49,664 nt of DNA. It comes from Bacilli bacterium. Its GTDB lineage: Bacteria > Bacillota_I > Bacilli_A > RFN20 > CAG-826. Under the pieces are notes generated by a model. The model saw only the letters and a program-made list of their open reading frames with translations, was not told the origin of the DNA and did no database searches. The position numbers and the translations under genes are program-made. Of this stretch, positions 3,144-35,384 are shown one piece after another. How positions within the stretch are numbered: the first letter of the stretch is position 1; each line of letters starts with the position of its first letter. The stretch is taken from NCBI GenBank assembly GCA_017470115.1, contig JAFUEZ010000002.1, forward strand, positions 1 through 49,664, written 5' to 3'.

Positions 3144-3158
3144 TACCTATATTCTACT

Positions 3159-3252: not shown

Positions 3253-3270
3253 TATTGCTAGAGGTATATT

Positions 3271-5287: not shown

Positions 5288-5299
5288 GCTCTTTATTTT
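5273..5299. terminator. Bidirectional Rho-independent terminator
   Basis: A perfect nine-base-pair stem, AAAGAGCTT (5273-5281) and AAGCTCTTT (5286-5294) with a GATT loop, contains the stop codon at 5285-5287. T-rich sequence follows in both directions, so it can serve the plus-strand gene ending at 5287 and the minus-strand gene ending at 5316. Confidence 0.75.
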
Positions 5300-5315
5300 C
5301 GCTTATATACTCTTT

Positions 5316-14390: not shown

Positions 14391-14429
14391 GAGAAAAGAA
14401 AAACATGTGCGATTTTCTCGCACATGTTT
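14391..14429 (-). terminator. Rho-independent terminator of the 1219-residue lipoprotein gene
   Basis: A perfect 12-base-pair stem, AAACATGTGCGA (14401-14412) and TCGCACATGTTT (14418-14429) with loop TTTTC, is followed on the minus strand by a T-rich run. It lies 18 bases after the stop codon. Confidence 0.85.
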
Positions 14430-17400: not shown

Positions 17401-18106
17401 CATGGACTGAATCACCAATCTTTAATTGTAAATCTTCATAATATTGGCTCAATTGTCCAGCATATAACATGATTGCGTAGTCACCATCTTGGACATAAAC
17501 GCCACTATAAACGTGTCCGTTAGTTCCTGTTGTTGGTTCAACTGTAGCAGTAATAATACCTTCAAATTCAACTTCATCGTTGGCTTTAATTGTTCCATTA
17601 GTAATACCTTCTCTTAAAGCTTGAAGTGTAATTGTATTATTAACTTCTGGTAAAACTGTAATATCAACAGTAGCAGTGATTTGGCCAGCTTTAACTGTGA
17701 TTGTTGCTGTACCAGCACCAACTGGTGAAAGAACTCTACCTGAAACAGAAATAACTTGTGGGTTACTTGATGTAGCAACTGCAAGACCATCTGTGAAGTA
17801 GTCAGATGTATTTACTGTTGTACCATCACTTAATACGATAGTAGCATCAATTGTTCTTGTTTTACCCTTGACATGCCATTCCTCTTGTAAAGCTTCCGTA
17901 TTTGTGATTGTGATACTAGCAACTTTAGCTTCTTCTTGTTGGCCGCCACCGCCACCTTGACCTTCGTCGTCTTTGTTATCACTAGCTACTGGGTTTTCGT
18001 AATTTTGATGAAAGAATTCATTTAAATCACATGATGATAAGACCATTGCACTGCTTAAAACTAAAACTGAAGCAGCAATAATTTTACTTAATCTTTTCTT
18101 GGCCAT
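14447..18106 (-). CDS. Large surface lipoprotein with Ig-like (BIG2) and OB-like domains
   Basis: The 1219-residue protein starts with a lipoprotein signal (LSSC, lipidated C26), then a Gly/Gln-rich linker. In order, at approximate positions: a BIG2-type Ig domain (62-150), an OB-fold-like domain (155-265), a related second domain (270-390), a second BIG2 domain (393-485), two copies of a unit containing a Y-x-LGL-x-x-x-NL-x-K motif and an LGTY-x-(S/T)-(F/Y)-NT-(L/I)-S motif (about 490-640 and 650-790), another OB-like domain (800-890), a third Ig domain (about 1000-1075) and a C-terminal beta-rich domain. The OB-like domains resemble those found in secreted nucleases such as YhcR. No nuclease active site is evident, so it may bind nucleic acid or glycans. 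A strong AGGAGGT precedes the ATG. Confidence 0.75.
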   Translation of the reverse strand: MAKKRLSKIIAASVLVLSSAMVLSSCDLNEFFHQNYENPVASDNKDDEGQGGGGGQQEEAKVASITITNTEALQEEWHVKGKTRTIDATIVLSDGTTVNTSDYFTDGLAVATSSNPQVISVSGRVLSPVGAGTATITVKAGQITATVDITVLPEVNNTITLQALREGITNGTIKANDEVEFEGIITATVEPTTGTNGHVYSGVYVQDGDYAIMLYAGQLSQYYEDLQLKIGDSVHVKGVNSPYGGFNEIKPSEITKEIQGNLAKPNVLTVSGEDYADAEHKLLGKDSNLAKVTNAVYKSGTITVANKVHNNLIFGFPKTDGSLVDVAVAVSYHLGTDALNALKAVTDTLKPGDKVNLDGNISVNENKFQFALNFLEGKTPAQCVVPTGESQTLAQPESIKITAADDVKELEVGKKLQLSAEVTPADAVQTVKWSSSDATIAKVGEDTGLVEGIGQGKVTITATSTVLDTVKATFELDVKENNDPYDIVSNPEVNVAYRLGLYQENLSKAIYSDGKESGNYLATTENIGDGADWYVEDVSKEGDAEKTYKLYTQDDETKKYLNLVDREYTSQGQQKISHDPKLQDEGTTIWKFNTEYNTFTTEVGTDGEMYLGTYNSFNTLSMSKISYAKTSFVSHFMSIRPKLVKEAPKVDTPYLLGLSQDNLNKNLFFVGEMDGYYYKTTASAQFAKNIYFESATGGYYMYFKGEASAKKYLNYVQTDETHKGVVLADTAVSVWTYNSEHNTMTTVLQDVTYYLGTYGTYNTISASAISKIGTSFPTHLFESVIADDSGETPDTPDTPVEDPKTFVELTKTDVKVTDWKAVVTHVAGKNVYLDDGTAGILAFCKEAASGISVGDYVKVSGTTSTYNAAIQIADAEVTKLTEGTPNELCAINPLTQAKAKELFDAKSTVPGGRYSLRTGAIGGSGNYLTWAYGEINMETGANATAGMQAGKIYDVEGYVQGIYKSQYLLFVVTKATVVETELTSLTCKASADKVKVDEEITLSAEGNAGADVSNVTFQITEGSDKATINGNKLKGVAEGTVKVVAKCGSVTSEPITITVEKKEEQGGETPTVKKVTLTTKDFNVEYTGSNIVYGNITGSATVENQSVGLAGYYANYGNGLQMNKESFLCNTSAFPGYITEIKINWNSNTTTTKNVLIMSAGTTAMTSLISTGTYVAPSAVTTSSFDASDKITYFNLSHHKSTSGAVYIDSIEISYSVVA

Positions 18107-18164: not shown

Positions 18165-18629
18165 CTATTGAACGAAGACATTGTTATTAATGTCTCGTAA
18201 AAGTTCGGTATATTTTTTATGTTTTGTAATTCCTTGGTAAAGTAAGATTCCTCCACTTACAATTCCAGCAACTCCAATAACAAGTAAAACAATAAAAACT
18301 TTAAACTCTGTTGAACCGAACGATAATTGGCCACCTAAAGCAGCCTTAAAAGACATGAGGAAGAAAAGGAATGAAATAATTGTCAAAATTATTCCGATAA
18401 CTAAAAAACACATGCCTGTATTACGTGAATTACTAGCACGATGAATTTCAGCATGTGATGCTCTTGATAAAGCCTTAATTTCTTCTTCGTTTAAATCTTC
18501 TTTAATGATATGTCCGCATCTTGGGCAGACATATGTAACTTTTGTATTTGCAGTTCTAAAACCAGCTGCTTCTGGAGCAACTTTTTGTTGGTTTTCTTTT
18601 AAATCGTATCCGCAATGTGAACAATACAT
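18165..18629 (-). CDS. Zinc-ribbon membrane protein
   Basis: The 154-residue protein has two CxxC pairs near the N-terminus (CSHC, CPRC; about residues 3-6 and 35-38) that can form a zinc ribbon. A helical segment follows, then two membrane helices (about residues 74-96 and 105-130). The C-terminus is polar. Such zinc-ribbon/two-helix proteins are common in Firmicutes and of unknown role. No ribosome site is seen before the ATG. It lies between the nuclease train and the large lipoprotein gene on the same strand. Confidence 0.65.
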   Translation of the reverse strand: MYCSHCGYDLKENQQKVAPEAAGFRTANTKVTYVCPRCGHIIKEDLNEEEIKALSRASHAEIHRASNSRNTGMCFLVIGIILTIISFLFFLMSFKAALGGQLSFGSTEFKVFIVLLVIGVAGIVSGGILLYQGITKHKKYTELLRDINNNVFVQ

Positions 18630-18740: not shown

Positions 18741-19868
18741 TTATTTGTCTTCATGTATATAAAGTTTATTTTTTGCTGCATATGCATTTGCATATGCTAA
18801 ATAATCAAAATATAAAACATCTTTATAATACATTTCTTCGTATTTATCGTATAAAGCGTGTTTTGCTAAACCGGCTTTAACAATATCAAAATTAAGTAAT
18901 CTTAAATCACTAAATGTAGGATTTTGTTTTGTAGTGTACCAAACAAAGCCAAGATATCTTCCATAATTTTCATGTAGTGCTCCACCTCTACAACTTTGAA
19001 CATATATCAAAGTGGCTGAGCTCATTTTTTCATTATTAAATGCTTTAGCGGTGTCTCCGTATTTTTCTCCACCTCCATCACCATGATCAATTTCTGGAGT
19101 GTCAATCATTAAATATCTTACTGATGTTGATGAACTTAATGAACTACCACTTGGCCAATTGAAAAAAGTTGTGTCTCCATCTCCAAGACGTCTTACTGTT
19201 GCTTTTTCATATCCTCCATAACTTTTATCTCCGCTTTCAAAAGGTAGACTACCATATTCTTCACTATCAAGCCTTGGTCCTTCTAAGATTTCTTCTTCCG
19301 TTACAGGTGTTTCTAAGTTTCCAAGGTATTTTGTGACGCCTTTTCTAGCTTTCACGTAATTCATCCTGTCAAATTTATCTCTATCTAAAAAGTGATTTGG
19401 TAATTTGATTAAAGATTGTTGATCAACATAACTTGTATTAAATTCTTTAAATCCTAGTGAATCAATCATGCGATTTTTTTCATCAACTAGTTCAACGTAA
19501 TAAAGCCCATAAAGTGTATTGTCTTCAAGTTTTAAAATAGTTGATGTTGAATCAGTAAATGTCGATTCTTGGTTTTCAACTAATACCAAATTAGATTTAG
19601 AAATCTGAACTCCTTTAAAGTTATATGAAAGTCTAAGGTTGCTTCCTGAATAAACTTTTAAAGTTAAATTTGATATATCAAAAGGCTCTTCTTCAAGCGT
19701 TCCAAGTTCTAAAATGCAATCATTAATAGATTCACCTGCATAGAATTCTGATATAAAAATATTGGGTTTCTGCAGGGTTTTTGAATTTTCTCCTGCAAAA
19801 TCACAAGAAAAAACACCTAGTGAAAAACTAAGCGAAGTTAGAAATACTAAGTGTTTAATTCTTTTCAT
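18741..19868 (-). CDS. Staphylococcal nuclease-type lipoprotein with N-terminal lamin-tail-like domain
   Basis: The 375-residue protein has a lipoprotein signal (VFSC, C22). An Ig-like region (about 35-150) resembles lamin-tail domains of secreted nucleases (IFISEFYAG, DISNLTL). The SNase domain covers about 220-370. The Ca2+/catalytic residues of micrococcal nuclease are all matched: GDGDT, the Arg and Glu of VRYLMIDTPE, and the Arg in YGRYLG. It should be a surface-anchored, Ca2+-dependent, sugar-nonspecific nuclease. It starts two bases after the preceding nuclease gene and is the last gene of the transporter train. Codons just after the lipobox Cys carry an in-frame copy of the dispersed repeat. 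Confidence 0.88.
   Translation of the reverse strand: MKRIKHLVFLTSLSFSLGVFSCDFAGENSKTLQKPNIFISEFYAGESINDCILELGTLEEEPFDISNLTLKVYSGSNLRLSYNFKGVQISKSNLVLVENQESTFTDSTSTILKLEDNTLYGLYYVELVDEKNRMIDSLGFKEFNTSYVDQQSLIKLPNHFLDRDKFDRMNYVKARKGVTKYLGNLETPVTEEEILEGPRLDSEEYGSLPFESGDKSYGGYEKATVRRLGDGDTTFFNWPSGSSLSSSTSVRYLMIDTPEIDHGDGGGEKYGDTAKAFNNEKMSSATLIYVQSCRGGALHENYGRYLGFVWYTTKQNPTFSDLRLLNFDIVKAGLAKHALYDKYEEMYYKDVLYFDYLAYANAYAAKNKLYIHEDK
19755..19782 (-). repeat. Dispersed short repeat, in-frame copy inside the second nuclease gene
   Basis: On the minus strand it reads AAAAACCCTGCAGAAACC then CAATATTTTT and encodes the linker KTLQKPNIF, starting eight residues after the lipidated Cys. Upstream bases 19792-19797 (TGCAGG on the minus strand) can pair with its CCTGCA, as in the copy at 49120. 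Confidence 0.5.
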
Positions 19869-19870: not shown

Positions 19871-21313
19871 TTAGCTAACTAAAATTAAATCAGTTGAGTC
19901 TCTTAAAACAATTTGATAACCCAAATTACCTGATGTTGAAAGATGGAATGAATAAATTCCTTTGAGTTTGAATGTATGATTTTTATAATCTTCAAATGTT
20001 TTCCATTTTGTGATTTCATCATTAGGATCTGGCTGATAAAGGAATGGAATATAAATTGTAAATGGAGTTCTATTACCACCTAATGTTGTATAAAGAGTAA
20101 CATTAGCAGGGGTTGAAGCTGAATCATAACCACCATTACAATATATTTCTTCATTTACAGAAATAGGAGCAAATAACATATCATCACTTGCATAATCATT
20201 TGTTGCACCTAAATCCATTGCACCAGATTTAAATTCATGAACTTTTAAGTGATCAGGAATTGTTTCAGGTGTAAATAAAATTTGTGTATTATCAGGATCA
20301 TCAGTTTTAATTTTTGGGAAACCATGTACTGCAGTAATTTGGAATCCAAAATTTTCACTATCTTGAGCAAGTCCACAGAGTTCAAGATAAGTATTTGGAA
20401 CTGTGTATTTGCTTGGAATAGAGTTCATTCCACCAAAAACATTTAAACCAGCATATTCGATTTTGCCTGTTTCTTCATCTTCAAAACCGGCTTGTAAATA
20501 TAAAATTCTATTAGCGTAGCCAACAACTGTTCCTTGTACTCTTACTTTTTTGTTGTCGTATTTATTTTTATGAGTTGGATCATGTAAGCAAGTAATAATT
20601 TCTTTTTTAATGCTTAAAAGTGATGTGTCTTCATATTCGCCATAGTTATATTCATCATCTGGTTCTCCAGAAAATAACATAAGCTTAAAATCTCTAGCTT
20701 GTTGGTTAGCGGCCATGAATGTGTCTTTAAATTCTGGGAATTTTTCGAGGTTTTTAACAAGTGATAATCCTTCTTGAACTACCCATAAATTTAATAAAAC
20801 AAGTTCATTATAAGGACAGTTTTCTTTGTCGCTAACCCAAACAAGAGATAAATATCTAGTTTGTGTTGAATCTAATTCTGGTGCTGCGTATCTATCGATA
20901 ACAGTAGATGTAACAACAATGGTTTTTGCTTCTTCTAATTTTCCAGTTGTAAATTTTGAAGCTTTTTTACCATATGGTTCAACATCACCTGTAGATTCAG
21001 GTGTATCAATTCCATAATATCTAGATTTGACAAGATCTTCTCCAGGGAAATCTTTTTGTTTAAAGTGAGATGTATCTCCATCGATTCCAGTATAAAGTTC
21101 TACTTCAGCAATTCCATCTTTAAAGAAATTTTTACCTTTATAATCGACTTTTAATCTGATGTTTTGATCTGTATGAACATAATCAATAAAGCCTTCTCTT
21201 TCGTTATCTTTTTCTCCATTACTTGGGAATAGATCACATCCTGTAGCACTAAAACTAGTTACAGCAAGAAGTCCAGAAAGGAATAAAGTTTTAAGTGAGT
21301 TTTTAATTCTCAT
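19871..21313 (-). CDS. Staphylococcal nuclease-type lipoprotein with OB-like C-terminal region
   Basis: The 480-residue lipoprotein (SATGC, C26) carries an SNase domain at about residues 68-215. It has IDGDT, the Arg and Glu of RYYGIDTPES, and a later Arg (TQTRYLSL) matching the R35, E43 and R87 set of micrococcal nuclease, so it is probably active. The second half contains an OB-fold-like module (KKVRVQGTVVGY...) and a further beta-rich region, which could hold the substrate. I chose the ATG at 21313 because AGGAGGT sits directly before it; a GTG two codons upstream overlaps that site. It is co-directional with the binding-protein genes nine bases upstream. Confidence 0.86.
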   Translation of the reverse strand: MRIKNSLKTLFLSGLLAVTSFSATGCDLFPSNGEKDNEREGFIDYVHTDQNIRLKVDYKGKNFFKDGIAEVELYTGIDGDTSHFKQKDFPGEDLVKSRYYGIDTPESTGDVEPYGKKASKFTTGKLEEAKTIVVTSTVIDRYAAPELDSTQTRYLSLVWVSDKENCPYNELVLLNLWVVQEGLSLVKNLEKFPEFKDTFMAANQQARDFKLMLFSGEPDDEYNYGEYEDTSLLSIKKEIITCLHDPTHKNKYDNKKVRVQGTVVGYANRILYLQAGFEDEETGKIEYAGLNVFGGMNSIPSKYTVPNTYLELCGLAQDSENFGFQITAVHGFPKIKTDDPDNTQILFTPETIPDHLKVHEFKSGAMDLGATNDYASDDMLFAPISVNEEIYCNGGYDSASTPANVTLYTTLGGNRTPFTIYIPFLYQPDPNDEITKWKTFEDYKNHTFKLKGIYSFHLSTSGNLGYQIVLRDSTDLILVS

Positions 21314-21322
21314 AAACACCTC

Positions 21323-22792
21323 CTAATTAGATGTTCCATTTACAGCTTTTGAAGCAATTTCATATGCTGCTGCAAATGATGCATCGAGATTTTCTTCTAA
21401 AGTATCTTTTTTATATGTATTAAGTAAAACGTTAGTAATAATACCTTCAACTGCATCACGTGCTTTATCACTACCAACAAATACTGGATAATTGAAATAA
21501 TTACCATTAATTTCTTTAACAACAGTATTTGCACAAACTGACATGTAGTCTTTTTCAGCTAAATATTCAGCATAATCTGCGTTTGTATAACAAGATTCTC
21601 TAACTGGAATATATCCGTTTGATGTAAGAGCAATGTTAATATTGTTCTTTTCGTTTGTAATATATTTAAGGAATTTCCAAGCATATTTACATCTTAAATC
21701 GTTCTCTTCTTTTGAAATACCAGTATTATTTAACATAGTTAAAGTAACGCCTTGAGAAACATATTTTGCTCTTTCGGCTGGTGTATTTTTATAAACAGGG
21801 AATTTACAAACGCCATTTTCAAATGAAACACCTGGATCACTATATCCACTACCACCAGTTGAACCAACAACAAAGATTGATTTTCCAGCAGTAAACCATG
21901 CAGATGAATATTGGTTTTTATTAGATCCTTTTGTAAGGATTAACCCTGCATCATATAAACTCTTGATTTCAGCAACCATTGCTTTTGCTTCATCATTAAC
22001 AAAGTCAACAGAGCCTTTGCCATCTTTATACGAAATATAATTAATGCCTCTTTGGAAACATTGAGAAATGAAATAGTTACCATCACTATCGTAATATAAT
22101 GGACAAGCATCAGCGTCAGTTAAGCCATATTTTGCTCTATTTGCATTAACATATTGAAGCATATTGATAAGTTGATCCCATGTTATTTCATTCATGTATT
22201 TTGTAACACCTGTTTGAATTCCCATGTCGCTTAAAACTTGCTCAACAACTTTCTTGTTATATAGCATGAGTTCAGTTGATTTCATATAAGGAAGAGAATA
22301 CATTCCTTCTCTAATATATTTTGTTCCTTCTTCAACAAATGAAGAGACAAAATCATCAATTCCTTTTTTAGATGGGTTGAGTTCTTCTTCTGCAGCAAAT
22401 CCAAGATCAGGATCGTTAACAAATTTATTTAAATCAACAACATATTCTCCTGGAGTATGTTCTTTGCCTAAATATGTAGCTACGTTATCAGGATAGGCGA
22501 CTGTTAAAGTTGGAGTTGTGCCGGTTGTAAAACTATCGGTGACAAATCCTTCAACTTCATCGTATCCTCCACGTGGATCAGGAACCACTTCAACGTCAAC
22601 ACCCTCTTTCTCCTTTATGATTTTACTAAAAGCAGTGCATTGTCTTTTTAAAACTTCTGTGGTTTCTTTATTAAATGTTGTCCAAAAAGGAATAATGATT
22701 TTATTTGAAGTGCTGTCACCTCCTCCACATGAAGCAAGGCTAATTAACCCAGCAACTGTTAAAATAAACGTGCAAATCCTTGATTTTTTCAT
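21323..22792 (-). CDS. ABC importer solute-binding lipoprotein (second copy)
   Basis: The 489-residue lipoprotein (LASC, C22) belongs to the family 1 extracellular solute-binding proteins (sugar type, COG1653). Typical features are a fold start in PFWTTFNKETTEVL, an internal SLPYMKSTELMLYNK segment and a C-terminal helical region. It aligns along its length with the neighbouring binding protein at 22812 (shared PYPD/YPDAV, KSTE, YDSDGN/YDSDAN, PIRES, KARDAV segments), so the pair arose by duplication and divergence. It is preceded by AAAGGAG. The ligand cannot be told from sequence; context points to nucleosides, nucleotides or oligonucleotides. Confidence 0.88.
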   Translation of the reverse strand: MKKSRICTFILTVAGLISLASCGGGDSTSNKIIIPFWTTFNKETTEVLKRQCTAFSKIIKEKEGVDVEVVPDPRGGYDEVEGFVTDSFTTGTTPTLTVAYPDNVATYLGKEHTPGEYVVDLNKFVNDPDLGFAAEEELNPSKKGIDDFVSSFVEEGTKYIREGMYSLPYMKSTELMLYNKKVVEQVLSDMGIQTGVTKYMNEITWDQLINMLQYVNANRAKYGLTDADACPLYYDSDGNYFISQCFQRGINYISYKDGKGSVDFVNDEAKAMVAEIKSLYDAGLILTKGSNKNQYSSAWFTAGKSIFVVGSTGGSGYSDPGVSFENGVCKFPVYKNTPAERAKYVSQGVTLTMLNNTGISKEENDLRCKYAWKFLKYITNEKNNINIALTSNGYIPVRESCYTNADYAEYLAEKDYMSVCANTVVKEINGNYFNYPVFVGSDKARDAVEGIITNVLLNTYKKDTLEENLDASFAAAYEIASKAVNGTSN

Positions 22793-22811: not shown

Positions 22812-24296
22812 TTAAAGTTGTTTTGATGCTGCATCGTAAGCTTCTTTAAATATTGCATTAATTTCATCGTCGGTTCCGTTACAAGTTTTGCCTAAAACTT
22901 TACCCATTAAACCGTCGACAGCATCACGAGCCGCATTACTTCCTTTAAATGCAGGAGATGTGAAGTACATTTGTTGGAAATCAGCAACCTTATTTGCGAC
23001 TCTAGCATCTAACATATCTTGTGTTTTAGGAGTACAGTTCTTTTCATTATATACATCTTCATAATCTTTAGTAGCATAAGCAGACTCTCTAATTGGCATA
23101 TAGTTAGCGGTTGTTGACCATAATAAAGCATTTTGTTTTGTAATGCAGTGTCTATAGAATAACCATGATGCTAATGCTCTATTTTGATCCGTTGTTCCAT
23201 CTGCTTTCAAGTGTCTTAAGAAAGTCATTGATGGTCCTTGTAAAAGAACTTTTGCGTTACTATTATCTTTTTGAGGAAGTCTAAATACACCAATATCAAT
23301 TGTATTGTTTGCAGGTGAATAATATTGAGTACCTGCTGTTGAACCTACTGCAAATAAGCTTTGGCCAGCTTGCATATATGTATTTGATCTAACGTTTGTT
23401 GAAGCTTGTGAATTTATGTAATGGTTTTTAGCATATCCATTAAATTTCTTACATAAAGCTTTCATTCCATCGTTACTAAATAACAATTTACCAACACCAT
23501 TTTCTACTTTTGTATAATCGTATCCATATTGTTCAGCAAGTGTGATGAAAAGGTTTGCATCACTATCATAACTTAAAACTGCCCAACCGTTATCTCCGGT
23601 CTTATCGATATAATTCTTACCTGCTTCTGTTTCTGTGAAAGCAACTAGTTTTGGGCAGAAATTATCAAAGAATTCATCCCATGTAAGATTATCAAGATAT
23701 CTTTGGTTAATTGGATCACCATTATTAACGCCATCAAGTTCAAGGCCTAAGATTTTACTTCTATCGTAGTAAACAATTTCCGTGGATTTTGAAAATGGCA
23801 TTGAGAATGTACCTGTTGAGGTATATTGTCTGCCTTCTTCTAAAAATGATGGAAGAATGTCCTTTAAATCTTCTTCTGAAAGTCCATAATCTTTATTGTT
23901 AATATAATTATCAAGTTTAATTGCACGAGCAGCATCAATATAATCAGCAACAGCATCAGGATAAACCATTGCTAAATCAGCATAGACACCGCTATTAAAT
24001 CCGTCTTTAACAGTCGAAGCGATATCTGAATAACTTCCTGAAACAATATCAAGCTTAACAGTGACGTTTGGTTCAATTTTCTTAAACGAGTCAATCATTG
24101 AATTTAAAGCATCTTGGTTGTTCTTACCAGCTGTTGTTGAAAAAGTAATTTCAGTAGCTTCTTTAATTAATCCTTCAGTAGTAGGTGTATCATCGCTACC
24201 ACTTCCATCACCATTACCACCAAGATCGCATCCTGTAAGCAAGAATCCGGCTGCTGCAAATACTAATAATTTTTTAAATGTTTTACCAAAAACCAT
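22812..24296 (-). CDS. ABC importer solute-binding lipoprotein (first copy)
   Basis: The 494-residue lipoprotein (LTGC, C23) is of the family 1 solute-binding type. It has the segments MPFSKSTEIVYYD, LTWDEFFDNF and MPIRESAY seen in sugar-type binding proteins. The start is the ATG at 24296, six bases after GGAGGT; the open frame continues 49 codons upstream into the permease gene but has no start signal there. It follows the inner-membrane permease genes and precedes a diverged paralogue, so one permease pair may be served by two receptors. Confidence 0.9.
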   Translation of the reverse strand: MVFGKTFKKLLVFAAAGFLLTGCDLGGNGDGSGSDDTPTTEGLIKEATEITFSTTAGKNNQDALNSMIDSFKKIEPNVTVKLDIVSGSYSDIASTVKDGFNSGVYADLAMVYPDAVADYIDAARAIKLDNYINNKDYGLSEEDLKDILPSFLEEGRQYTSTGTFSMPFSKSTEIVYYDRSKILGLELDGVNNGDPINQRYLDNLTWDEFFDNFCPKLVAFTETEAGKNYIDKTGDNGWAVLSYDSDANLFITLAEQYGYDYTKVENGVGKLLFSNDGMKALCKKFNGYAKNHYINSQASTNVRSNTYMQAGQSLFAVGSTAGTQYYSPANNTIDIGVFRLPQKDNSNAKVLLQGPSMTFLRHLKADGTTDQNRALASWLFYRHCITKQNALLWSTTANYMPIRESAYATKDYEDVYNEKNCTPKTQDMLDARVANKVADFQQMYFTSPAFKGSNAARDAVDGLMGKVLGKTCNGTDDEINAIFKEAYDAASKQL

Positions 24297-24330
24297 AATT
24301 TTACCTCCGTTTTTGTCTATATAATATCTT

Positions 24331-25314
24331 CTAACCTTTGATGCCGGCTCTTCCAACGCCACGCATAATATATTTTCTAAAGAAGATAAATAACAAGAAT
24401 AATGGGACAGTAACGACAACTGTTGCTGCCATTTGATAGCCAAATTGAGTAATTCCGCTATCTGGATCTGAGAAGCTTGCGCCTCTTAAACCATTTGAAA
24501 TAAGTCTATATTCACTTTTTTGTGTAACAAGATTTGGCCACACATATGAGTTCCAAGTACCCATGAATTTTAAAATTGTAATAGAAATTAAGGTTGGAGC
24601 TGCAAGTGGAACCATAACTTTCCAGAGATAACTCCAATCTGATTTTCCATCAACCTTTGCTGCTAAATATAATTCATTAGGAATTTGGTTGAAATTTTGT
24701 CTAAGTAAATAAATGTAATAAACACTAACCCAGAAAGGAACAATCATTGATAAATATGCATCAAGTAAAGTTTGATTTTCACTAACCCAGCCAAATGATG
24801 CAACGGTAATGTAGTTAGAAATAACCATCATTTCACCAGGAATCATCATTGTCATAAGGAAAATACCAAATACTTGTTCTCTTCCTTTAAATTGAAGTCT
24901 AGCAAAAGCAAACGCTGCAAAAATTGTTGTAATTAATGTTCCTAGCGTTGAGAAAATTGCAACAACAATAGTGTTTGTCATGTAAGTTAAGAAATTAAAT
25001 GCTTGGAAAACATAAACATAATTGCTCCACATAACAACTGTTGGGAAGAATGTCTGTGTTGTAGCCATAATTTCATCGTTATTTTTAAGTGAAGTAATGA
25101 TCATCCAATAGAATGGAAGAATCATAATTAAAGCTAATGCAGTGATTGCAATATAAATGATAATTGTCCAGAAAGTTGATGAAACTTTTTCACGCTTTCT
25201 TAAAGTTTCAACAGTGGCGTTTCCTTCTTTAATAACAAGATTAATATCTTGTCCTTGGAGATTGGTCTCAGTGAAATCAATATAAGATTTTTTATTTAAA
25301 ACTTGTTCTGCCAT
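24331..25314 (-). CDS. ABC importer permease, MalG/UgpE type
   Basis: The 327-residue protein has an N-terminal cytoplasmic tail of about 45 residues and six membrane helices. The EAA loop needed for ATPase docking is NELYLAAKVDGKSDWSYLWK, at about residues 215-235. It belongs to the carbohydrate-uptake type 1 (CUT1) permeases (COG0395). It is preceded by TTAGGAG, nine bases from the partner permease gene. CUT1 systems import sugars or glycerol phosphates, but the linked nucleases suggest a nucleic-acid breakdown product here. Confidence 0.92.
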   Translation of the reverse strand: MAEQVLNKKSYIDFTETNLQGQDINLVIKEGNATVETLRKREKVSSTFWTIIIYIAITALALIMILPFYWMIITSLKNNDEIMATTQTFFPTVVMWSNYVYVFQAFNFLTYMTNTIVVAIFSTLGTLITTIFAAFAFARLQFKGREQVFGIFLMTMMIPGEMMVISNYITVASFGWVSENQTLLDAYLSMIVPFWVSVYYIYLLRQNFNQIPNELYLAAKVDGKSDWSYLWKVMVPLAAPTLISITILKFMGTWNSYVWPNLVTQKSEYRLISNGLRGASFSDPDSGITQFGYQMAATVVVTVPLFLLFIFFRKYIMRGVGRAGIKG

Positions 25315-25323: not shown

Positions 25324-26400
25324 CTAACGACTTCTTCTCTTGTTGAGGCCTAATTGAAGGAACGTAAAGACAAGAATAAATACAAACAAGATAACTGCGG
25401 CTGCAGCAGCACGTGAAGTTTGTGTATTTAAGTTGTCATAAATGTAATAAACCATGGTGTAGAGCTCATATGAATTCTTAGTTGTACCAGGGTTATTAAA
25501 TAAACCTTTAACTGCGGTATATTCTTTGAATGCGCCAATAAATGATGTGACCATTAAATATAGAATTTGTGGCCAAAGTGAAGGAACAGTAATTCTTAAA
25601 AGAACCTTCCATCCTGGAGCAGCATCGATTTTTGCAGCTTGATAATATTGTTTATCAACGTTTTGAAGACCACTTAATAAAATAAGAATTTTAAATGGTA
25701 AACTTCCCCAAACAATATATAAAACTAAAGGAACCATTGCTGTCCATCTATCAGCACCATAAATCCACACTGTATCGGTTCCTAAAATGAAGTTGATTAA
25801 ACCATGATCATCAAAAAGGACCGAGAAAACCATACCAACAGCGATTGTGTTAGTAACGTAAGGTAAGAAGAAAATGGTTTGATAAACTTTTTGTAACCAT
25901 CTAATTTTATTTAATAAAACAGAGATTAAAAGTGCGATAGTAATCGATAAAGGAACGGTTACAAAGACGATAATAATTGTGTTTGGAATAGCAAAATTCA
26001 CAAAGTTCGTCTCGAAAACTGCCGGCATTGTATCGGTCGCCGGAACTATTTCTTTTAATCCTAAAACAATTAAGAAATTATCAAATGTAATACCAGTTGC
26101 AGTACCCGTAATATAATCATAATTTTGCATAAATGCGATTGCGATTGTATTAATAAGTGGGTAAATGAGGAAGACTGACATTAAGATTAAAACTGGAGAT
26201 AAATATAGCCATGCTTTCCAGTTATTACGTTGCTCTTGGTCTAAGACTCCTCCAACTGTATATTTGCGTTTTATGTTCTTTCTTGAGACAACATTAACAA
26301 TAACGTCTTTTTCAGCGTTATAACCTTCTTCTAATTCTCCTAATTTAGGATCATAGAATCTATTTGATAATGTTGAGTTCTCTAAATTAACACTACTCAT
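25324..26400 (-). CDS. ABC importer permease, MalF/UgpA type
   Basis: The 358-residue protein has a long cytoplasmic N-terminus (about 55 residues) and six membrane helices. Its EAA loop is QYYQAAKIDAAPGWKVLLR, at about residues 255-275. It belongs to the CUT1 permease family (COG1175). It is preceded by AAGGTG and lies eight bases from the ATPase gene. It pairs with the permease at 24331 to make the translocation channel. Confidence 0.92.
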   Translation of the reverse strand: MSSVNLENSTLSNRFYDPKLGELEEGYNAEKDVIVNVVSRKNIKRKYTVGGVLDQEQRNNWKAWLYLSPVLILMSVFLIYPLINTIAIAFMQNYDYITGTATGITFDNFLIVLGLKEIVPATDTMPAVFETNFVNFAIPNTIIIVFVTVPLSITIALLISVLLNKIRWLQKVYQTIFFLPYVTNTIAVGMVFSVLFDDHGLINFILGTDTVWIYGADRWTAMVPLVLYIVWGSLPFKILILLSGLQNVDKQYYQAAKIDAAPGWKVLLRITVPSLWPQILYLMVTSFIGAFKEYTAVKGLFNNPGTTKNSYELYTMVYYIYDNLNTQTSRAAAAAVILFVFILVFTFLQLGLNKRRSR

Positions 26401-26408: not shown

Positions 26409-28313
26409 TTATTTATCTAAATAAATTCTCTCTTGAGTTTCGTAATCGAAAATAAACATTTTGCTTGGATTGACTTTAAGGACGATATCACCAAGGACAT
26501 TTGTTTCATCACTTGAAATGATGACTCTGAAAACGTCTTTGATACAAGCTGGGTTTTTAGCAACAATTGAGATGTCTCTACCTAAGACTTGAATTTGATC
26601 AACTGAAGCTTTTAAGCCGACTTTTGCAGACTTTTCTTCTAAAGCAAAGCCTTCAGGTCTAATTGCAACCCATACTTTTTGATCAGCAACGCCTTTTGCA
26701 TCGTTGATTACTGAGTCACCAACATAAACCTTTTCGCCTTTAACTTCTCCGTTAAAAACATTTATTTGTGGGGTACCAAGGAATTGAGCAACGAATAAAT
26801 TCTTTGGATTATTGTAAACATTTTGTGGTGCATCAATTTGTTGAGCAACACCTAATTTCATGACCATGATTTGATCGCTGATTGACATAGCTTCTTCTTG
26901 GTCATGGGTAACGAAAACAGTTGTAATACCTGTTTCTTGTTGAATACGTCTAATTTCTTCTCTAGTTTGAAGTCTTAATCTTGCATCTAAGTTACTTAAA
27001 GGTTCATCAAGTAATAAGACTTTTGGTTTTTTAACAAGTGCTCTAGCGATAGCAACACGTTGTTGTTGACCACCTGAAAGTTGAGCAGGTTTTCTTTGTA
27101 AGTATTCTTCAATTTGAACAAGTTTAGCAGTTTCGTAAACGATATCTTTTCTTTCTTGTTTTGTTAATTTTCTATAAGAAACTGATGGGGTAACTTTTTC
27201 TTCAATAGCTTCGCTATTAAATGCTTCTTTTAATAAATTTCTAACTTCATTAAGTTCTTCTTCTTTAACTTTCTTAAGTTTGAAGAAAATCTTGGTTTCG
27301 CCTTTATCATCGTAAACTTTGAATTCTCTTAATTGTTTTTCATATTTTCCTAAAGCCTTACGAGCAAAAGCTTCAAATTCTTTTGTTTGAATACGTGAAA
27401 TCTTTAATTCTTCTTTTTCGGTTTCAAGCAATGATTTAACATTAGCTAAAACCTCTTTAAGTGAGACATATTTTGCATTTTTAAAATCAATAAGAACAAA
27501 GTTTTCACCTTGATCTTGATATGAAGAAATGGATTCAATCTTGATATTTGCTTCTTTAAATTTCTTAGCAAGTTCTTCTCTAATTGTTTCAGTGAAATCT
27601 TTTTGACCAATACAAAGTGTGTCCATGCCAGAAACAACTTTTTGTTCATCAGCAATTTCGATTTTATAACGTAAAATCGCATCAAATAAAGCTTCACTTG
27701 ATTGAACTTTTTGGACATCTTTACTTTCTGGTTCAATAATTTTTGGGAAATTGAGTTCGAAAATTTCAGCATTTCTTTCCGAAACGTTCAAAAGTTCAAC
27801 AACGATATTTAATTTTCCACCATTATTTGAAACTTGAACTTTAGCATCTTTTGCTGAAATACCAATTTTTGCAACAAGTGTATTAATTGATCTTGTGATG
27901 CCTTCAACTGAATCATCTTCTTTTAAGGTGTATTCATATTTAAATGTATAGTGATAGAAAGTGACAAGAGGGACTTCAACTTTTAAGTTTGTTAATGGGA
28001 ATTCAACATTTTCAAAAATTGTCATGTGAGGATATAAAGCATAGTTTTGGAAAACCAAACCAATACCTCTTTTTTCTGGAGAAAGATTTGTGACTTCTTC
28101 TTCACCAAACCAAACTTCACCAGAAGTAGGAATTTGAAGACCTGAAATCATATAAAGTGTTGTAGATTTACCACATCCTGAAGGACCAAGTAAACCAACA
28201 AGTTTTCCATCTTCAACTGTTAAATCTAAACTGCTAACAGCAACAGTATCTTTAATGTGCTTTTTTGGATTTCCTGGAAATATTTTTGTTAATCCTTTAA
28301 GTTTAATCTCCAT
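26409..28313 (-). CDS. ABC importer ATPase (MsmK/UgpC type) with large internal insertion
   Basis: The 634-residue ATPase is about 265 residues longer than the usual 360-370. Walker A (GPSGCGKST, 43-51) and the Q-loop (Q89) are normal. A new segment of about 111-378 then precedes the signature LSGGQ (412-416), Walker B (LLLDEP, 433-438) and H-loop (H470). A C-terminal regulatory OB-type domain follows (about 510-634). The insert is Lys/Glu-rich with mixed helix and strand, sits in the helical subdomain and keeps the frame, so it is real protein and not a fusion error. Mycoplasma UgpC-like ATPases (MG187, about 585 residues) are also oversized. GGAG precedes the ATG. Confidence 0.93.
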
Positions 28314-28322: not shown

Positions 28323-29870
28323 CTATTTCTTTGAATTTGGCATTAATAAAACGCCGTCGTCCATTCTATCTTGATTGAGTTGCAAACGTAAAATGTCACG
28401 TTTAGCTTTAATATTTTTAATCGCAGTTGCGAAATATTTAATAAAGTAACCACCTAAAATAATCGATGCAATGCTGAAAACTATAATCAAAATGTCAATT
28501 GTGTTATAAACATCAAAAGATGTTGCAAGAACAGTCGATCTAAATACTATCGATTCAATGGCTAAAACAATTGATTCAACAGTAAATAATCCCATAATTG
28601 CTGTTTGGAAGAATTCTTTTGGTCTAACTCTCTTAAATTCATCGTCAGCAAACTTTTTCTTTTTATAGAAAAATAAACCAAGTGTTCCACCAACATAAAC
28701 AAATAAAATAGCAAGAGCAGTAAGTGTAATTGCTAAATCTACATTCACAAAATATGGATTCTCAGTTTTTTCAATTACAATATTTCCTTCTGCATCCTTA
28801 ACATCTGAAACACCGACTTTTTTATATGCAAATCTTAAAACTGCATTTGACTTAGGAACGGATTTTCCAGTAACTGTAGAATATAAATCTACATAAATGT
28901 AGAAATTATAAAATTCAAAATCAACAAGTCCATCAGTTTTAAAATCATTATATAGAAGAACCACTCCGGTTCCTGAATTTGTGATGTCAATTCTATCGCT
29001 CTTTGTATCAAAAACTTTTGATGAACCATCATCATAATAAGCGATAAATTTGGAATCGTTATTAAATGCGAGCATTGTACGAATCCAAGATTTCCCTGCT
29101 TGAACATCTCCTTCAGCTTCATCATAAGTTCTTCTAATTGCTGAAGAAATTCTACGATAAGTATCAACTAAATCAGCACCATATGATGTTGTGGTGAAAT
29201 TAATTGTGCTGTATCCATTAAAGGTCGAGCAACCTTGATATTTGATAGATGCAAAATCACTAAAAGAGAATTCTTTAAAAATGTCGGCTTTCTTAGTAAC
29301 CGAATAATATTTAACATATGTTCCGTCTGGATTTGTTTGTGGAACTAATTTGTTTTCACTATTTCTTGTTGAAGCAAAAATATTGAAAACTCTATATGAA
29401 TTATCAACAAGTGTTTCACCAGGATTAATAGGAATATCTGTTAAAAGCGTAAGTGATGATTCGCTGATTGCGCCAACAAAATCATAATAAGCGTTTTGGT
29501 TGTTCTTATGTAAATCGATAGTTCTTGTTTCCGTACCACCGCTTTGAAGATTAACTTTGTATTCTAAAGTTGCTGGTTGGAAGTCAGCGGCGCTTGTTCC
29601 GTAACCGCAATAGTAAGAATAACTATAATCTTCACTAGCTTCAAATGTGACAGAAGCAGCAATGCTTGTTTCGGTCTTATAAGCGCTATCAAAAGTCGTT
29701 GCTAAAAGCTCTTCATCGATTTCGGTACCGTAATCGATAGGATCTGAAGCAGCTTTTACCTGTTGTTTAACCTGTAAATTATCAGTGCTTGGTTTCGCCA
29801 ATCCAAATGCTGCAAACGCAACGAGGGTTAAACAGCCGGATATGACTTTGAATTTCTTAAAGTTTTGCAT
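28323..29870 (-). CDS. Membrane protein with large ectodomain, first gene of the transporter block
   Basis: The 515-residue protein has an N-terminal hydrophobic segment (about residues 8-27) ending near AFGLAKP. An external region of about 340 residues follows, rich in Tyr, Ser, Thr and Asp and probably beta-structured. Three membrane helices lie near the C-terminus (about 367-390, 410-435, 450-475), then a basic tail. I do not recognise the family. It is nine bases from the ATPase gene, so a role as accessory or receptor subunit of the importer is likely but unproven. I chose the ATG at 29870, six bases after TATAAT; the ATG at 29885 lies before that -10 box and neither has a ribosome site. 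Confidence 0.65.
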   Translation of the reverse strand: MQNFKKFKVISGCLTLVAFAAFGLAKPSTDNLQVKQQVKAASDPIDYGTEIDEELLATTFDSAYKTETSIAASVTFEASEDYSYSYYCGYGTSAADFQPATLEYKVNLQSGGTETRTIDLHKNNQNAYYDFVGAISESSLTLLTDIPINPGETLVDNSYRVFNIFASTRNSENKLVPQTNPDGTYVKYYSVTKKADIFKEFSFSDFASIKYQGCSTFNGYSTINFTTTSYGADLVDTYRRISSAIRRTYDEAEGDVQAGKSWIRTMLAFNNDSKFIAYYDDGSSKVFDTKSDRIDITNSGTGVVLLYNDFKTDGLVDFEFYNFYIYVDLYSTVTGKSVPKSNAVLRFAYKKVGVSDVKDAEGNIVIEKTENPYFVNVDLAITLTALAILFVYVGGTLGLFFYKKKKFADDEFKRVRPKEFFQTAIMGLFTVESIVLAIESIVFRSTVLATSFDVYNTIDILIIVFSIASIILGGYFIKYFATAIKNIKAKRDILRLQLNQDRMDDGVLLMPNSKK

Positions 29871-29876
29871 AAAAAA

Positions 29877-29882
29877 ATTATA
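29877..29882 (-). promoter_or_regulatory. -10 box TATAAT placed for a leaderless mRNA
   Basis: Minus-strand TATAAT followed by six T and the ATG at 29870. It would give the transporter/nuclease genes their own promoter, separate from the RDD-like pair upstream. Confidence 0.5.
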
Positions 29883-29934
29883 CATTTTATGTATAACATA
29901 ATCAACCTAGCAACAATAAATTTTTTGTTAAAAT

Positions 29935-30963
29935 TTATAGATTTTTATCTCTTTTATAATAGTTCATTTGAGGTCTTCCAACATAATCGTAAACCTCTTT
30001 TTTGTTAATAAAAATTCTATTTTGAGAACAGTCTATTTCTTCGATATTTAAGAAATAATCGTGCAGATTCTGATTCTTTTTTGAAAAAACCATTAAACTA
30101 AAACTAACAATTAATGGAATTCCAGCAGTTGGAATCGATAGAATTATTTCTACAAAAAACTGAATTAAAAATCTTAATGTATATAGCTTCCAATTGACGC
30201 TTAGGACATTCTTATCAACTAAACCTGTTTTAAACAAAAATCTTCCAAGCGTTTTCTTTCCTCTACTAAAACATAAAGGAATTATATAGTAATAAATAAC
30301 ACATCCTAAAGTAATCGCAATAGGTGTTTCTACAAAAAAGAGCATGTTCGATTGTAATTTTTGTATTTCTAAAACTTCAGGAATTTTGGCTGTAAATAAA
30401 GCGAGCGCAGTTTTATCAATATATGGTTGATAACAACCTGTAATATATTCTTTTGATGAAAATTCTGCTTCTTCGTTTCTTTTTATTTCACTCCCTTCTT
30501 TTACAAAATAGTGAATATCGTTTTTCACTAAATTTAGTCGATAATCATCGTAATATTTGATTGCCGCTTCTTTTTCACTTTCATTAGTTTGTTCACCTAA
30601 AAAGGTAAAAAATTCATCAATTCTTTTTTCTAAATCCATCCTTATAGCTGTGTAATCAATACTTGTTGAATAATTATAATAAGTGATTATATCTTCATAT
30701 CTTTTATCTGTATATGAATATACATAAAGTTGAGATTCAATTTTTAGTGAATTTAATTGTTCTTCTTTTAGAGCATAATACTTGTTATGAACGACAATTT
30801 CACGTGTTGCAGTAAAAAATCCTAAACAAAGTAATGCGGCAAGCAAAAAATCAAAAAGAACACAGGCTGCACGATGCCAAAATTTTGGCCTATAATAGGC
30901 AATTTCAAGAGGAGCGTTTTTGTCTTCTTCTTTCTTTTTTACTTCATAGACATCATCTTCCAT
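29935..30963 (-). CDS. RDD-like membrane protein with ectodomain (second of a pair)
   Basis: The 342-residue protein starts with a cytoplasmic segment and a first helix (about residues 31-53) that contains the Arg and Asp of RDD-family proteins (HRAACVLFDF). An external loop of about 150 residues, absent from ordinary RDD proteins, follows. A second helix (205-230), a KKTLGRFLFKTGLVD motif and a third hydrophobic region come next. It overlaps the preceding paralogous gene by 11 bases. The function is not known; RDD proteins have been linked to ion transport in some bacteria. AAGGAAAAAGG lies before the ATG. Confidence 0.65.
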   Translation of the reverse strand: MEDDVYEVKKKEEDKNAPLEIAYYRPKFWHRAACVLFDFLLAALLCLGFFTATREIVVHNKYYALKEEQLNSLKIESQLYVYSYTDKRYEDIITYYNYSTSIDYTAIRMDLEKRIDEFFTFLGEQTNESEKEAAIKYYDDYRLNLVKNDIHYFVKEGSEIKRNEEAEFSSKEYITGCYQPYIDKTALALFTAKIPEVLEIQKLQSNMLFFVETPIAITLGCVIYYYIIPLCFSRGKKTLGRFLFKTGLVDKNVLSVNWKLYTLRFLIQFFVEIILSIPTAGIPLIVSFSLMVFSKKNQNLHDYFLNIEEIDCSQNRIFINKKEVYDYVGRPQMNYYKRDKNL

Positions 30964-32080
30964 AGCCTTTTTCCTTATAATAAAGATCCATTAAAGAACT
31001 ATCGACAACAATCGAATTAGTCCCTATTTCTTTGAGAGATTGATTTAGGTTTGTTGATAAAACAAATACTAATTCTGCAATAAGCACTAAAATACCTACA
31101 AAAGAAACCGTATAAAGCATAGGTAAGGAGAATAGATTCGTAAATCCATAAGTTAAAATTGGAATAGCAAAAACAACGCTTGAAGCGTGAACTACATTAA
31201 AAATAGATAAGATAAGTCGATATCGAAGTGGCAAGTATTCCAAGTTATTTTTATCGACATGTTCGACTTTCGCAATTCTCTCAGATAGAGTCTGCCCTTT
31301 ATGATTTGTAAAAGGAAGGACAAAAAATTCCAATATGATTACTAGTGTAAAAGATAAATAACTGATTAGAACATATGAACTTTGTACATTTTGTTCAGTT
31401 TCTAAAACTCTTTTAGTATATTCATTATAAGACAAAAGAGCTGGGTTTAGCGGGCTTTTTAAGTCATTTTCGCCACTTATATCAATCATAATTTCTCTAT
31501 AAAGAGATAAATAAACGTTTTGTTGAAAGTTTTCAAAATGCCTTTTCCCATCTTCGCTCATCTCGTTTCCTTTTTCGAAATTCGGCTTAAAAAATTTAAT
31601 ATATTCTTCCTTTAATTCATAAGTTCCTAAAGGTGTAGTTTTTGTTTCGTCAAAAAAGTTTTTTCCATACTTTAAATATAGCTCGTTAACCTTTTCAACA
31701 TTTTCGCCTTTTATATCAACAAAATAATGATGGATAGATTCATATGTGCTGTCTTCTTGTCCAAACGAATAATAGCGAATAAACTTTTTTGCTGTACGAT
31801 CTAAATTGGCAGTAAAATTATATTTTTCTTTTTCAACATCATCATAAAAAAGAAGACTGTTATCGTATAAAACTTGTGTTCTTCCTCTTTCACTTTCAGT
31901 ATGTATGGCGCCGTTTTCTTTATAGAATGGTGTTGCTTGTAAAATAGGTTTAGCAGCGACTTCGAAAATAAAAACGCTTGCAATAAAAGTAAGCATAATA
32001 TCCGCTAATGTAACTAGTACCCTTTTTGTTGGTTTTGAAGGGTAAATATCGATAACTTTTTTTGCTGTTTCAGAAGTCAT
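30953..32080 (-). CDS. RDD-like membrane protein with ectodomain (first of a pair)
   Basis: The 375-residue protein has the same plan as the gene that follows it. A first helix (about 18-40) begins with an Arg and holds an Asp (KRVLVTLADIMLTFI). An external region of about 190 residues follows, then a second helix (about 235-258), a GQTLSERIAKVEHVD motif and two further helices. The two genes overlap by 11 bases, suggesting a heteromeric complex. It is the first gene of the long minus-strand train. The ATG has no ribosome site and lies six bases after TATAAT. Confidence 0.65.
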   Translation of the reverse strand: MTSETAKKVIDIYPSKPTKRVLVTLADIMLTFIASVFIFEVAAKPILQATPFYKENGAIHTESERGRTQVLYDNSLLFYDDVEKEKYNFTANLDRTAKKFIRYYSFGQEDSTYESIHHYFVDIKGENVEKVNELYLKYGKNFFDETKTTPLGTYELKEEYIKFFKPNFEKGNEMSEDGKRHFENFQQNVYLSLYREIMIDISGENDLKSPLNPALLSYNEYTKRVLETEQNVQSSYVLISYLSFTLVIILEFFVLPFTNHKGQTLSERIAKVEHVDKNNLEYLPLRYRLILSIFNVVHASSVVFAIPILTYGFTNLFSLPMLYTVSFVGILVLIAELVFVLSTNLNQSLKEIGTNSIVVDSSLMDLYYKEKGYGR

Positions 32081-34328: not shown

Positions 34329-35044
34329 GAGTTTTCGTTTTTAGTAATCTCATCTTGTCTCTTTTTAATTCTAGTCCAATTAAAAAAACCATATAAATCG
34401 TTTACTAGAAAGAAAACAAAACACGAAACAATCGGAATATAAGAAATATCTTCAATCGTTGCTAATGTCCATAAAGTTATAAGCACAATATCATTTGCAG
34501 CATAAAATAGTTGTGTAAATCTGCTTCTTTTAATTTGAAAATATAAAGCTAGAAAACTTGTAAACAAGGACACAGTTGAAGTAATTATATTTTCAGTTCC
34601 TAAATATCTTAATAACCAAAATAACGAAAAAGTTAATATAACTGAAGCTATTGGCCCAATGACAAAATCAATCTTTTTGGTACTTAAAATAGCGACTTCA
34701 GTTGTTCCTTTGAACCTATTGATGAACCAAATCACACCACTAAAAATTCCTAAAGGAATCATAAAAGCAAAATAAATTATTGCTTCACCATAGTATTGAA
34801 AATTTAGCGATGTTATCGCATAAAACAAAGAAAAAAGTAATGACAAAACAATCCCAATTAGGCTTGCCTTAGCTAGAAAAAATATTGAAATTATTCCTAA
34901 CTGAGCTCCTAAAAGATTTTGATAATCATCACATTGAAAAACAAAATAAAGAATTAACGGAATAGCTAATTCAACAAATAAGAGAATAGCCTCTTGCCAC
35001 GTTAATATATTTTTGAACTTGAACTTTGACTTCTTTTCTTCCAT
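34325..35044 (-). CDS. pnuC: PnuC-type nicotinamide riboside transporter
   Basis: The 239-residue membrane protein has about seven helices. It ends with a cytoplasmic NDLYGFFNWTRIKKRQ motif typical of PnuC, and has the family's FYAAND segment near the last helices. PnuC imports nicotinamide riboside (or a related vitamin) by facilitated diffusion with trapping by a kinase. It is convergent with the EAL gene. The vitamin preference cannot be proven from sequence. It supports dependence on external NAD precursors. Confidence 0.85.
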   Translation of the reverse strand: MEEKKSKFKFKNILTWQEAILLFVELAIPLILYFVFQCDDYQNLLGAQLGIISIFFLAKASLIGIVLSLLFSLFYAITSLNFQYYGEAIIYFAFMIPLGIFSGVIWFINRFKGTTEVAILSTKKIDFVIGPIASVILTFSLFWLLRYLGTENIITSTVSLFTSFLALYFQIKRSRFTQLFYAANDIVLITLWTLATIEDISYIPIVSCFVFFLVNDLYGFFNWTRIKKRQDEITKNENS

Positions 35045-35384
35045 AAAACTATTCGCTTTTCTTATTTAATATAATAAATCAAAAACGATAAAACATAATA
35101 ATGATAATCTTTTAAAATATTTCATTATATTTACAAAATGGATTAAGCAAAGACTTTTGACTTGTTTTGAATAAAGAAACAATTAAAAAATCAGATTGCT
35201 AATTATTAATTAACTTCACAAATTTCAAATTTTATTAAGGATTTGCGGGGTTTTTCATTTCTATACACAATTATTTGTAATTTATTATTAAAACATGATT
35301 TGAACATATCGAAAAAAATAAATAATTTTGTTATCATTAAAAATAATAAATATTTTTATATTATCTCATAAAGGAGGAAATTTT
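35045..35384. other. 340-base divergent intergenic region
   Basis: The region lies between pnuC (leftward) and the SPFH-protein gene (rightward). It contains one dispersed-repeat copy (35220-35255), a TATATT -10 element near 35358 and a strong AAAGGAGG before 35385. The rest is AT-rich. No RNA gene, riboswitch or coding frame is evident. Confidence 0.55.
35220..35255 (-). repeat. Dispersed short repeat copy
   Basis: On the minus strand it reads AAAAACCCCGCAAATCC then TTAATAAAATTTGAAATTT. The first half is close to the core; the second half is diverged. Confidence 0.6.

Follow-up and report, generated by a model that had tools for sequence, protein, structure and literature searches.

We tentatively propose that an ectodomain membrane protein, here labelled ECTO, is an accessory transmembrane subunit of a nuclease-linked CUT1-type ABC importer, coupled to a long insert in the importer's ATPase and perhaps, on the outside, to the RDD-family protein RDD1; we hold this reading to be almost an even bet. 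Its basis is the gene itself, a topology model, a constant gene neighbourhood, co-presence with the insert and with RDD1, and the pattern of conservation along the protein.

The ECTO gene and its row

The window is the whole stretch of DNA analysed, 49,664 nucleotides long, and all coordinates are window positions (Table 1). Its minus strand holds a single open reading frame of 520 codons at 28323-29885, whereas the plus strand reading of 28323-29870 is riddled with stops. The column of Met6 was invariant in a 16-member alignment, making a start at this methionine (29870) the likelier one. The gene therefore probably spans 28323-29870 and encodes 515 residues, the figures given by the initial annotation, which had left the strand unstated. 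With the last base of its stop codon at 28323 and the first base of the ATPase ATG at 28313, the nine-base gap described there is confirmed. ECTO is the third gene of a twelve-gene minus-strand row (32080 to 14447), and it stands well above chance as a gene, with a conserved family present in 47 of the 155 order genomes searched.

Domain matches and relatives place the locus among nuclease-linked CUT1 importers, with the ATPase, two permeases, and substrate-binding (SBP) and SNase lipoproteins in one row. Going by the SNase genes and the literature, the cargo would be products of the SNase lipoproteins or nucleic acid precursors. The hairpin that closes the row belongs to a class of terminator-like patterns barely above chance in the region (10 found versus 8.1 expected from shuffles). 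Divergent from the start of the row lies a gene for an EAL-domain protein (32421-34328, plus strand, E 3.6e-57), followed by one for a PnuC-like nicotinamide mononucleotide transporter family protein (34325-35044, minus strand, E 1.5e-20), possibly linked to nucleotide salvage. Also near the row are genes for an SPFH/Band 7 protein with a double zinc ribbon (35328-36737, plus strand) and, after it, for a protein that weakly matches a zinc finger (36749-38047, plus strand).

Table 1. Features of the importer row in window coordinates, with genes in row order from RDD2 to the 1219-residue lipoprotein and the predicted parts of ECTO and of the ATPase listed under their genes.
Feature	Position	Strand	Evidence and remarks
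RDD2, second RDD-family membrane protein	30953..32080	-	PF06271, E 1.4e-5
RDD1, RDD-family membrane protein, outer domain about residues 55-205	29935..30963	-	PF06271, E 2e-11
ECTO	28323..29885	-	open frame; 520 aa from ATG at 29885, 515 aa from Met6 at 29870
ECTO signal helix, residues 6-30	29796..29870	-	model helix 3-26, pLDDT partly below 50; sequence
ECTO outer beta-sandwich D1, residues 56-203	29277..29720	-	model pLDDT mostly above 90; middling Ig-like matches
ECTO outer beta-sandwich D2, residues 204-378	28752..29276	-	model; top VIA match WxLIP 9i25_C
ECTO TM helix 1, residues 382-405	28671..28742	-	model helix 382-411
ECTO cytosolic loop, residues 406-426	28608..28670	-	relative entropy 3.17; basic in 42/42
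ECTO TM helix 2, residues 427-449	28539..28607	-	model helix 422-451
ECTO short outer loop, residues 450-463	28497..28538	-	invariant R449, N461, D464 beside or within
ECTO TM helix 3, residues 464-486	28428..28496	-	model helix 463-500
ECTO cytosolic helix extension and tail, residues 487-520	28326..28427	-	D-D-G motif 509-511; D510, G511 invariant
CUT1-type ATPase, 634 aa, long insert	26409..28313	-	ABC_tran, E 6.9e-36
ATPase insert, residues 113-380, about 270 residues, between Q-loop and signature	27174..27977	-	model; ACT-like match
Permease F	25324..26400	-	BPD_transp_1, E 2.3e-22
Permease G	24331..25314	-	BPD_transp_1, E 3e-15
SBP1, substrate-binding lipoprotein	22812..24443	-	SBP_bac_8, E 6.9e-22; 22812-24290 scanned, true start probably inside
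SBP2, substrate-binding lipoprotein	21323..22792	-	SBP_bac_8, E 3.8e-19
SNase lipoprotein A (SNaseA)	19871..21319	-	PF00565, E 2.4e-8
SNase lipoprotein B	18741..19868	-	PF00565, E 5e-11
Small zinc-ribbon membrane protein	18165..18629	-	weak zinc-ribbon matches; relatives at equivalent place in many loci
1219-aa lipoprotein, Big_2 and OB-fold-like parts	14447..18106	-	Big_2, E 7.4e-12; OB-fold below Pfam's cut-off
Terminator-like hairpin and T run, closes row	14401..14429	-	pattern scan, 12 pairs

ECTO and the ATPase insert occur together

Of 59 genomes, 16 including its own gave an ECTO match, and in the other 15 of these the ATPase is the immediate next gene. A contig scan gave 44 ECTO loci, those 15 included, in which the adjoining ATPases measure 631-655 residues. 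In an order set of 155 genomes (requested completeness at least 90%), the ECTO profile matched 51 genomes and the insert profile 47. Four of the 51 (G249, G478, G504, and G438) match only within profile positions 25-170; the rest are exactly the insert genomes, and these four short N-terminal matches are the only trace of either profile elsewhere in the set. No full-length ECTO without the insert, or the reverse, appeared among the order genomes searched. Wherever both are present they lie on one strand, the end of the ECTO match being 349-440 bases from the start of the insert match, a distance accounted for by the front part of the ATPase. Among 395 genomes of the class, ECTO and the insert occur together in the same 17, and two further insert matches (G068 and G083) are short and weak.

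The co-occurrence with the insert to which the initial annotation had drawn attention is thus complete in the 155 genomes (47 with both, 108 with neither). Its alternative outcome, homologues mainly away from such importers, was not what we found, as the ATPase adjoins ECTO at all 44 loci and in all 47 genomes. In one genome (G099, contig C1, 545649-548296), the insert (E 7e-16, in pieces) and ECTO (E 1e-68) are both present in strongly diverged form. The permease G tree groups 42 of 43 ECTO rows in one clade with 100/100 support. The co-occurrence therefore mostly reflects one origin followed by faithful joint retention, rather than many independent gains, so that its Fisher values are not independent evidence and are not readable as probabilities. 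Judged from these sequence comparisons, ECTO very probably belongs specifically to this importer rather than being a component of importers at large.

The single exception in the permease G tree, locus L108 (contig C53 of genome G515), is of mixed type. The ECTO type covers ECTO itself and ATPase residues 1-480; the C-terminus of the ATPase, the permeases, and the SNase resemble those of the ECTO-less locus L224, and the switch from one type to the other falls between residues 480 and 510 of the ATPase. A second mixed locus, L241 (contig C6 of the same metagenome-assembled genome), combines an L224-type front with an L064/L065-like permease, and the type changes inside the ATPase gene at both loci. 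Recombination between paralogous importers or an assembly error is possible. We considered L108 as a natural swap that could have provided strong evidence and downgraded it, counting it neither way, given that its contig starts inside ECTO, cutting the gene, and that the same bin holds the second mixed locus.

The long insert sets these importers apart from ECTO-less relatives

Modelled alone, the insert forms a chain of beta-alpha-beta-beta-alpha-beta repeats (pLDDT 92.5, pTM 0.65), the middle one of which matches the ACT-like domain 6dzs_C with a Z score of 11.8 over 84 residues at 1.9 A. It thus models as tandem ferredoxin/ACT-like repeats. It is situated in the helical subdomain, which in ATPases of this kind, such as MalK, is close to the permeases. 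The ACT-like fold is often used in allosteric control.

For comparison, 19 ECTO-less loci were chosen (from twelve genomes, with four others and three that have RDD1 but lack ECTO). They were picked among the best permease matches, most with an SNase relative, and are a sample rather than a full census. The spacing from Q-loop to signature was 321-336 residues in all 45 ATPases beside ECTO and 52-279 in all 19 chosen ECTO-less ones, where it took values of 52-56 (52 in five), 78, 89-91, 127, 174-176, 231, and 279. The initial annotation had held that standard CUT1 importers have no such subunit; these 19 related importers, picked for lacking ECTO, have a shorter insert or none. Against the insert profile, the inserts of ECTO-less importers gave chance-level matches only (best E 0.038), and we therefore make no claim that the long insert grew from shorter ones.

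Several ECTO-less loci of the family carry relatives of RDD1 and RDD2 directly before the ATPase. From this gene order, the RDD proteins probably predate ECTO in the row, and ECTO probably arrived with the longest insert. The ECTO-less sister importers keep the same lipoprotein classes. They presumably function with shorter inserts and without ECTO, which counts against our preferred explanation.

RDD1 accompanies ECTO but is not confined to it

Every ECTO genome of the order set has RDD1, and RDD1 relatives also occur without ECTO. A single-protein search at E up to 1e-25 found RDD1 in 47 of 47 ECTO genomes of the order and in 3 of the 108 others, whereas a profile picked it up, with E from 5e-60 to 3e-16, in 13 of the 19 comparison loci that lack ECTO. 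RDD1 was accordingly set aside as an ECTO-specific partner, the contrast in the single-protein search hanging on the E-value cut. These occurrences slightly lowered our confidence both in the accessory-subunit reading and in the reading of ECTO, RDD1, and the insert as one device, described below.

By the cut of our gene-order script, RDD1 is the upstream neighbour of ECTO in 36 of the 47 genomes, or 37 if a second ECTO piece in G487 is counted. Where displaced, it is found on the same strand some 12.6 to 14.9 kb downstream in four genomes, on another contig in three, and further upstream in three; six named loci lack an ordinary RDD1 neighbour, and RDD1 is nevertheless present in the genome of each. 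RDD1 is thus retained with ECTO even after moving. At L080, RDD1 (2662-3732) overlaps ECTO as called (3596-5815, with TTG at 3596), and the start of ECTO is probably further in; the script left out this RDD1 owing to the overlap, and L082 and L086 look similar. Few RDD-family proteins have a known role.

Topology and conservation of ECTO

To model ECTO, we supplied AlphaFold2 with an alignment of 42 family members of more than 450 residues and obtained a mean pLDDT of 85.5 and a pTM of 0.75. The model comprises a signal helix, beta strands within residues 61-381 arranged as two Ig-like beta-sandwiches (D1 and D2), and three C-terminal helices (Table 1). Structure prediction, a step the initial annotation had suggested, thus gives about 350 external residues and three helices, close to its estimate of about 340 and three. 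The loop of residues 406-426 carries a net positive charge in 42 of 42 members, which places it in the cytosol by the positive-inside rule.

Conservation is highest in this loop and in the tail, with relative entropies of 3.17 for the loop, 3.09 for residues 506-512, and 2.44 for the third helix, compared with 1.64 for D1 and 1.51 for D2. Nine positions outside D1 and D2 are invariant in the 42 members (K409, K411, E416, R449, N461, D464, G479, D510, and G511), as is G94 in D1. Because conservation peaks on the cytosolic side, it points toward the ATPase and away from an outside ligand. The cytosolic loop and tail could lie within reach of the ATPase insert, and we regard contact between ECTO and the insert as an evenly balanced proposition.

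The same conserved parts would also suit a sensor or brake that is not a stable subunit, in which the ectodomain reads the substrate or the state of the envelope and the loop and tail use the insert to switch the ATPase. The ACT-like repeat in the insert is in line with such a role, but no ligand site was found and an ACT-like fold shows no function by itself, and we consider this quite unlikely.

The composition of the outer part bears on the suggestion in the initial annotation that ECTO might be a receptor for DNA, here taken as DNA or oligonucleotides that feed the nuclease. Two SNase lipoproteins and OB-fold-like parts are encoded in the row, and 11 of 42 members have a D2 whose own net charge is positive, so that a local basic patch is conceivable. 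However, the net charge of the complete ectodomain is negative in every one of the 42 members, with a median of -24.5, and its fold matches are generic Ig-like sandwiches. This disfavours a DNA receptor, which we judge very unlikely.

Family members fall into two size classes, 494-535 residues (20 of 42) and 638-948 residues (22 of 42), and in a 16-member alignment the extra residues of two long members lie near the start of D1. A Pfam scan of the 42 members gave scattered weak matches among the best 25 of 50 families, including LRR_5 in 7 of 42 (best E 0.0054). We rejected the idea that the extra outer part is LRR-like after a rescan of five long members, not necessarily among those seven, gave no match up to E 0.01.

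An unnamed family with Ig-like outer domains

Up to E 1, ECTO matched no family of Pfam or NCBIfam, including no ABC ATPase, BPD_transp_1, or SBP domain, and by this measure is not a CUT1 core subunit. A PHROGs search with ECTO returned only three weak matches, all of unknowns (E 0.13 to 0.6), and an ECTO profile searched against PDB sequences returned two weak ones (E 0.035 and 2.7). ECTO resembles RDD1 and RDD2 in carrying an outer domain on a membrane anchor of few helices and in sharing their gene row. Unlike them, it has no match to the RDD family (PF06271), and, as read from sequence, RDD1 and RDD2 have their outer part placed between hydrophobic helices one and two.

The top match in the VIA fold comparison paired D2 with WxLIP of Enterococcus faecium (9i25_C; Z 6.2, 99 residues, 3.2 A), tied with other matches within 1 Z, and the next paired D1 with the Bacillus anthracis conserved domain protein 3fbq (Z 5.6, 103 residues, 3.4 A). 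Matches in this middling range may reflect nothing beyond the common sandwich arrangement. Foldseek against the PDB and viral models gave long, poor superpositions, mostly with Ig-like proteins and with TM mostly 0.05 to 0.25. The VIA list consists mostly of D1 matches and scarcely covers D2 and the helices, and for this reason we do not claim the ECTO fold as new.

WxLIP is described, in the text accessible for this source, as having two Ig-like domains and one membrane helix and is proposed there to bind WxL surface proteins (PMC10599100). As modelled, ECTO may share with it the layout of a pair of Ig-like domains outside the membrane, one after the other, and an anchor at the C-terminus (PMC10599100). 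It differs in its three C-terminal helices, as modelled, against one in WxLIP, and in lacking a DUF916/DUF3324 match (none in Pfam up to E 1, and none among the best 25 of 50 families for the 42 members), and WxLIP is not part of an importer. We therefore use WxLIP as an analogy for ECTO and not as its family. The analogy brings up an envelope anchor or assembly factor that positions the importer or ties it to a surface layer, as proposed for WxLIP and WxL proteins. The modelled Ig-like domains on a membrane anchor and the longer forms of the 638-948 residue class would fit, but three helices and conserved cytosolic parts are unnecessary for an anchor, and the missing DUF916/DUF3324 match also speaks against this role, which we regard as highly improbable.

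Co-variation with other proteins of the row

A partial mirror-tree analysis was run on 25 loci (29 complete, minus 4 near-copies), using the ATPase core and permeases as a control for shared phylogeny. The highest inter-protein values were 0.45 for SBP1 with SBP2, 0.42 for the membrane part of ECTO with the ATPase insert, and 0.39 for the ectodomains of ECTO and RDD1; none of the three was reached in 1000 permutations, and several lower pairs pass as well. The analysis was repeated with another alignment mode, distance, ranks, other controls, and two halves of the loci. With all 25 loci, the pair of ECTO membrane part and insert ranked 3 to 14, and the pair of ectodomains 4 to 14. By halves, the former gave -0.06 in the loci nearest to the window and 0.43 in the others, whereas the latter was positive in both (0.26 nearest to the window and 0.47). 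Under an alternative control, the membrane part of ECTO with permease G ranked first (0.53). We treat the co-variation as a suggestive lead for pairing of ECTO with the insert and with RDD1.

The same analysis bears on a docking platform, the other role put forward in the initial annotation, in which the ectodomain would keep SBP1, SBP2, and the SNase lipoproteins close to the permeases for hand-over of nuclease products. The common gene row and the outside location favour such a platform, as does the tandem Ig-like layout, proposed to bind surface proteins in the case of WxLIP according to the accessible text (PMC10599100), and D1 co-varied with SBP2 at 0.21. The whole ectodomain, however, shows little or no co-variation with these lipoproteins beyond background (0.01 with SBP1, 0.15 with SBP2, and 0.03 with SNaseA; up to 0.27 with SBP2 under other settings), and the sister importers keep their lipoproteins in the absence of ECTO. 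We find a docking platform unlikely and consider a receptor role for DNA or lipoproteins the less likely way to read ECTO.

A model for ECTO as an accessory subunit

As an accessory subunit, ECTO would sit beside the importer through its three-helix anchor, with the basic cytosolic loop and the D-D-G tail gripping the ferredoxin-like insert of the ATPase. On the outside, the Ig-like D1 and D2 would form a scaffold next to the permeases, perhaps jointly with the outer domain of RDD1, and near this scaffold SNase lipoproteins could digest nucleic acid and SBPs gather the products. ECTO might then tie the state of this outer assembly to the ATPase, or hold the ATPase within a larger import complex. 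The outer role proposed here is doubtful, and we put it forward with more reserve than the contact with the insert.

A bolder version, which we think improbable, joins ECTO, RDD1, and the insert into one transmembrane device. In it, the outer Ig-like assembly would be coupled mechanically or allosterically, via the three-helix anchor, to the insert in the helical subdomain, so that nuclease products, perhaps oligonucleotides rather than nucleosides, would be imported in step with their digestion. We know of no comparable ABC importer.

A clade of uncultured Bacilli thus keeps an extra membrane protein and a dedicated ATPase insert together, along with an RDD protein. If the coupling is true, it would show how an ABC importer is wired to an outer enzyme assembly. 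It would also give a first role to the unnamed ECTO family and suggest a function for RDD-family proteins.

Comparison with known systems

Textbook ABC importers have four or five parts. Among CUT1 importers, MusI of Corynebacterium glutamicum MusEFGK2I is a small, integral membrane extra subunit not known to carry a large ectodomain. As an extra protein of a CUT1 importer, ECTO would resemble MusI, which provides a precedent for extra subunits. MusEFGK2I is named as a maltose importer of this species in the accessible part of PMC10101108. Literature searches, as far as the text they returned extends, yielded no description of an ECTO-like importer subunit.

Nuclease-linked importers are known from other bacteria. 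MAG_5030 to MAG_5070 of M. agalactiae (Mycoplasma hominis group) are thought to take up nucleic acid precursors and, like the row described here, encode an SNase lipoprotein, a sugar-type binding lipoprotein, an ATPase, and two permeases (PMC3585158). As far as the accessible description goes, neither an ectodomain membrane protein or RDD proteins nor a conserved neighbour downstream of the transporter is mentioned for the mycoplasma row, and its gene order differs (PMC3585158). Among uncultured Bacilli, the DNA-degradation loci of Ca. Izemoplasmatales place extracellular nucleases beside ABC transporters, with an ECTO-like membrane protein and an ATPase insert both unmentioned in the accessible portions of these sources (PMC8289736, PMC8397711, PMC10470597), and Bacilli of family CAG-313 are stated to have numerous extracellular nuclease genes (PMC8289736). 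The class of importer is thus known, and ECTO is an unnamed family that very probably forms its additional part.
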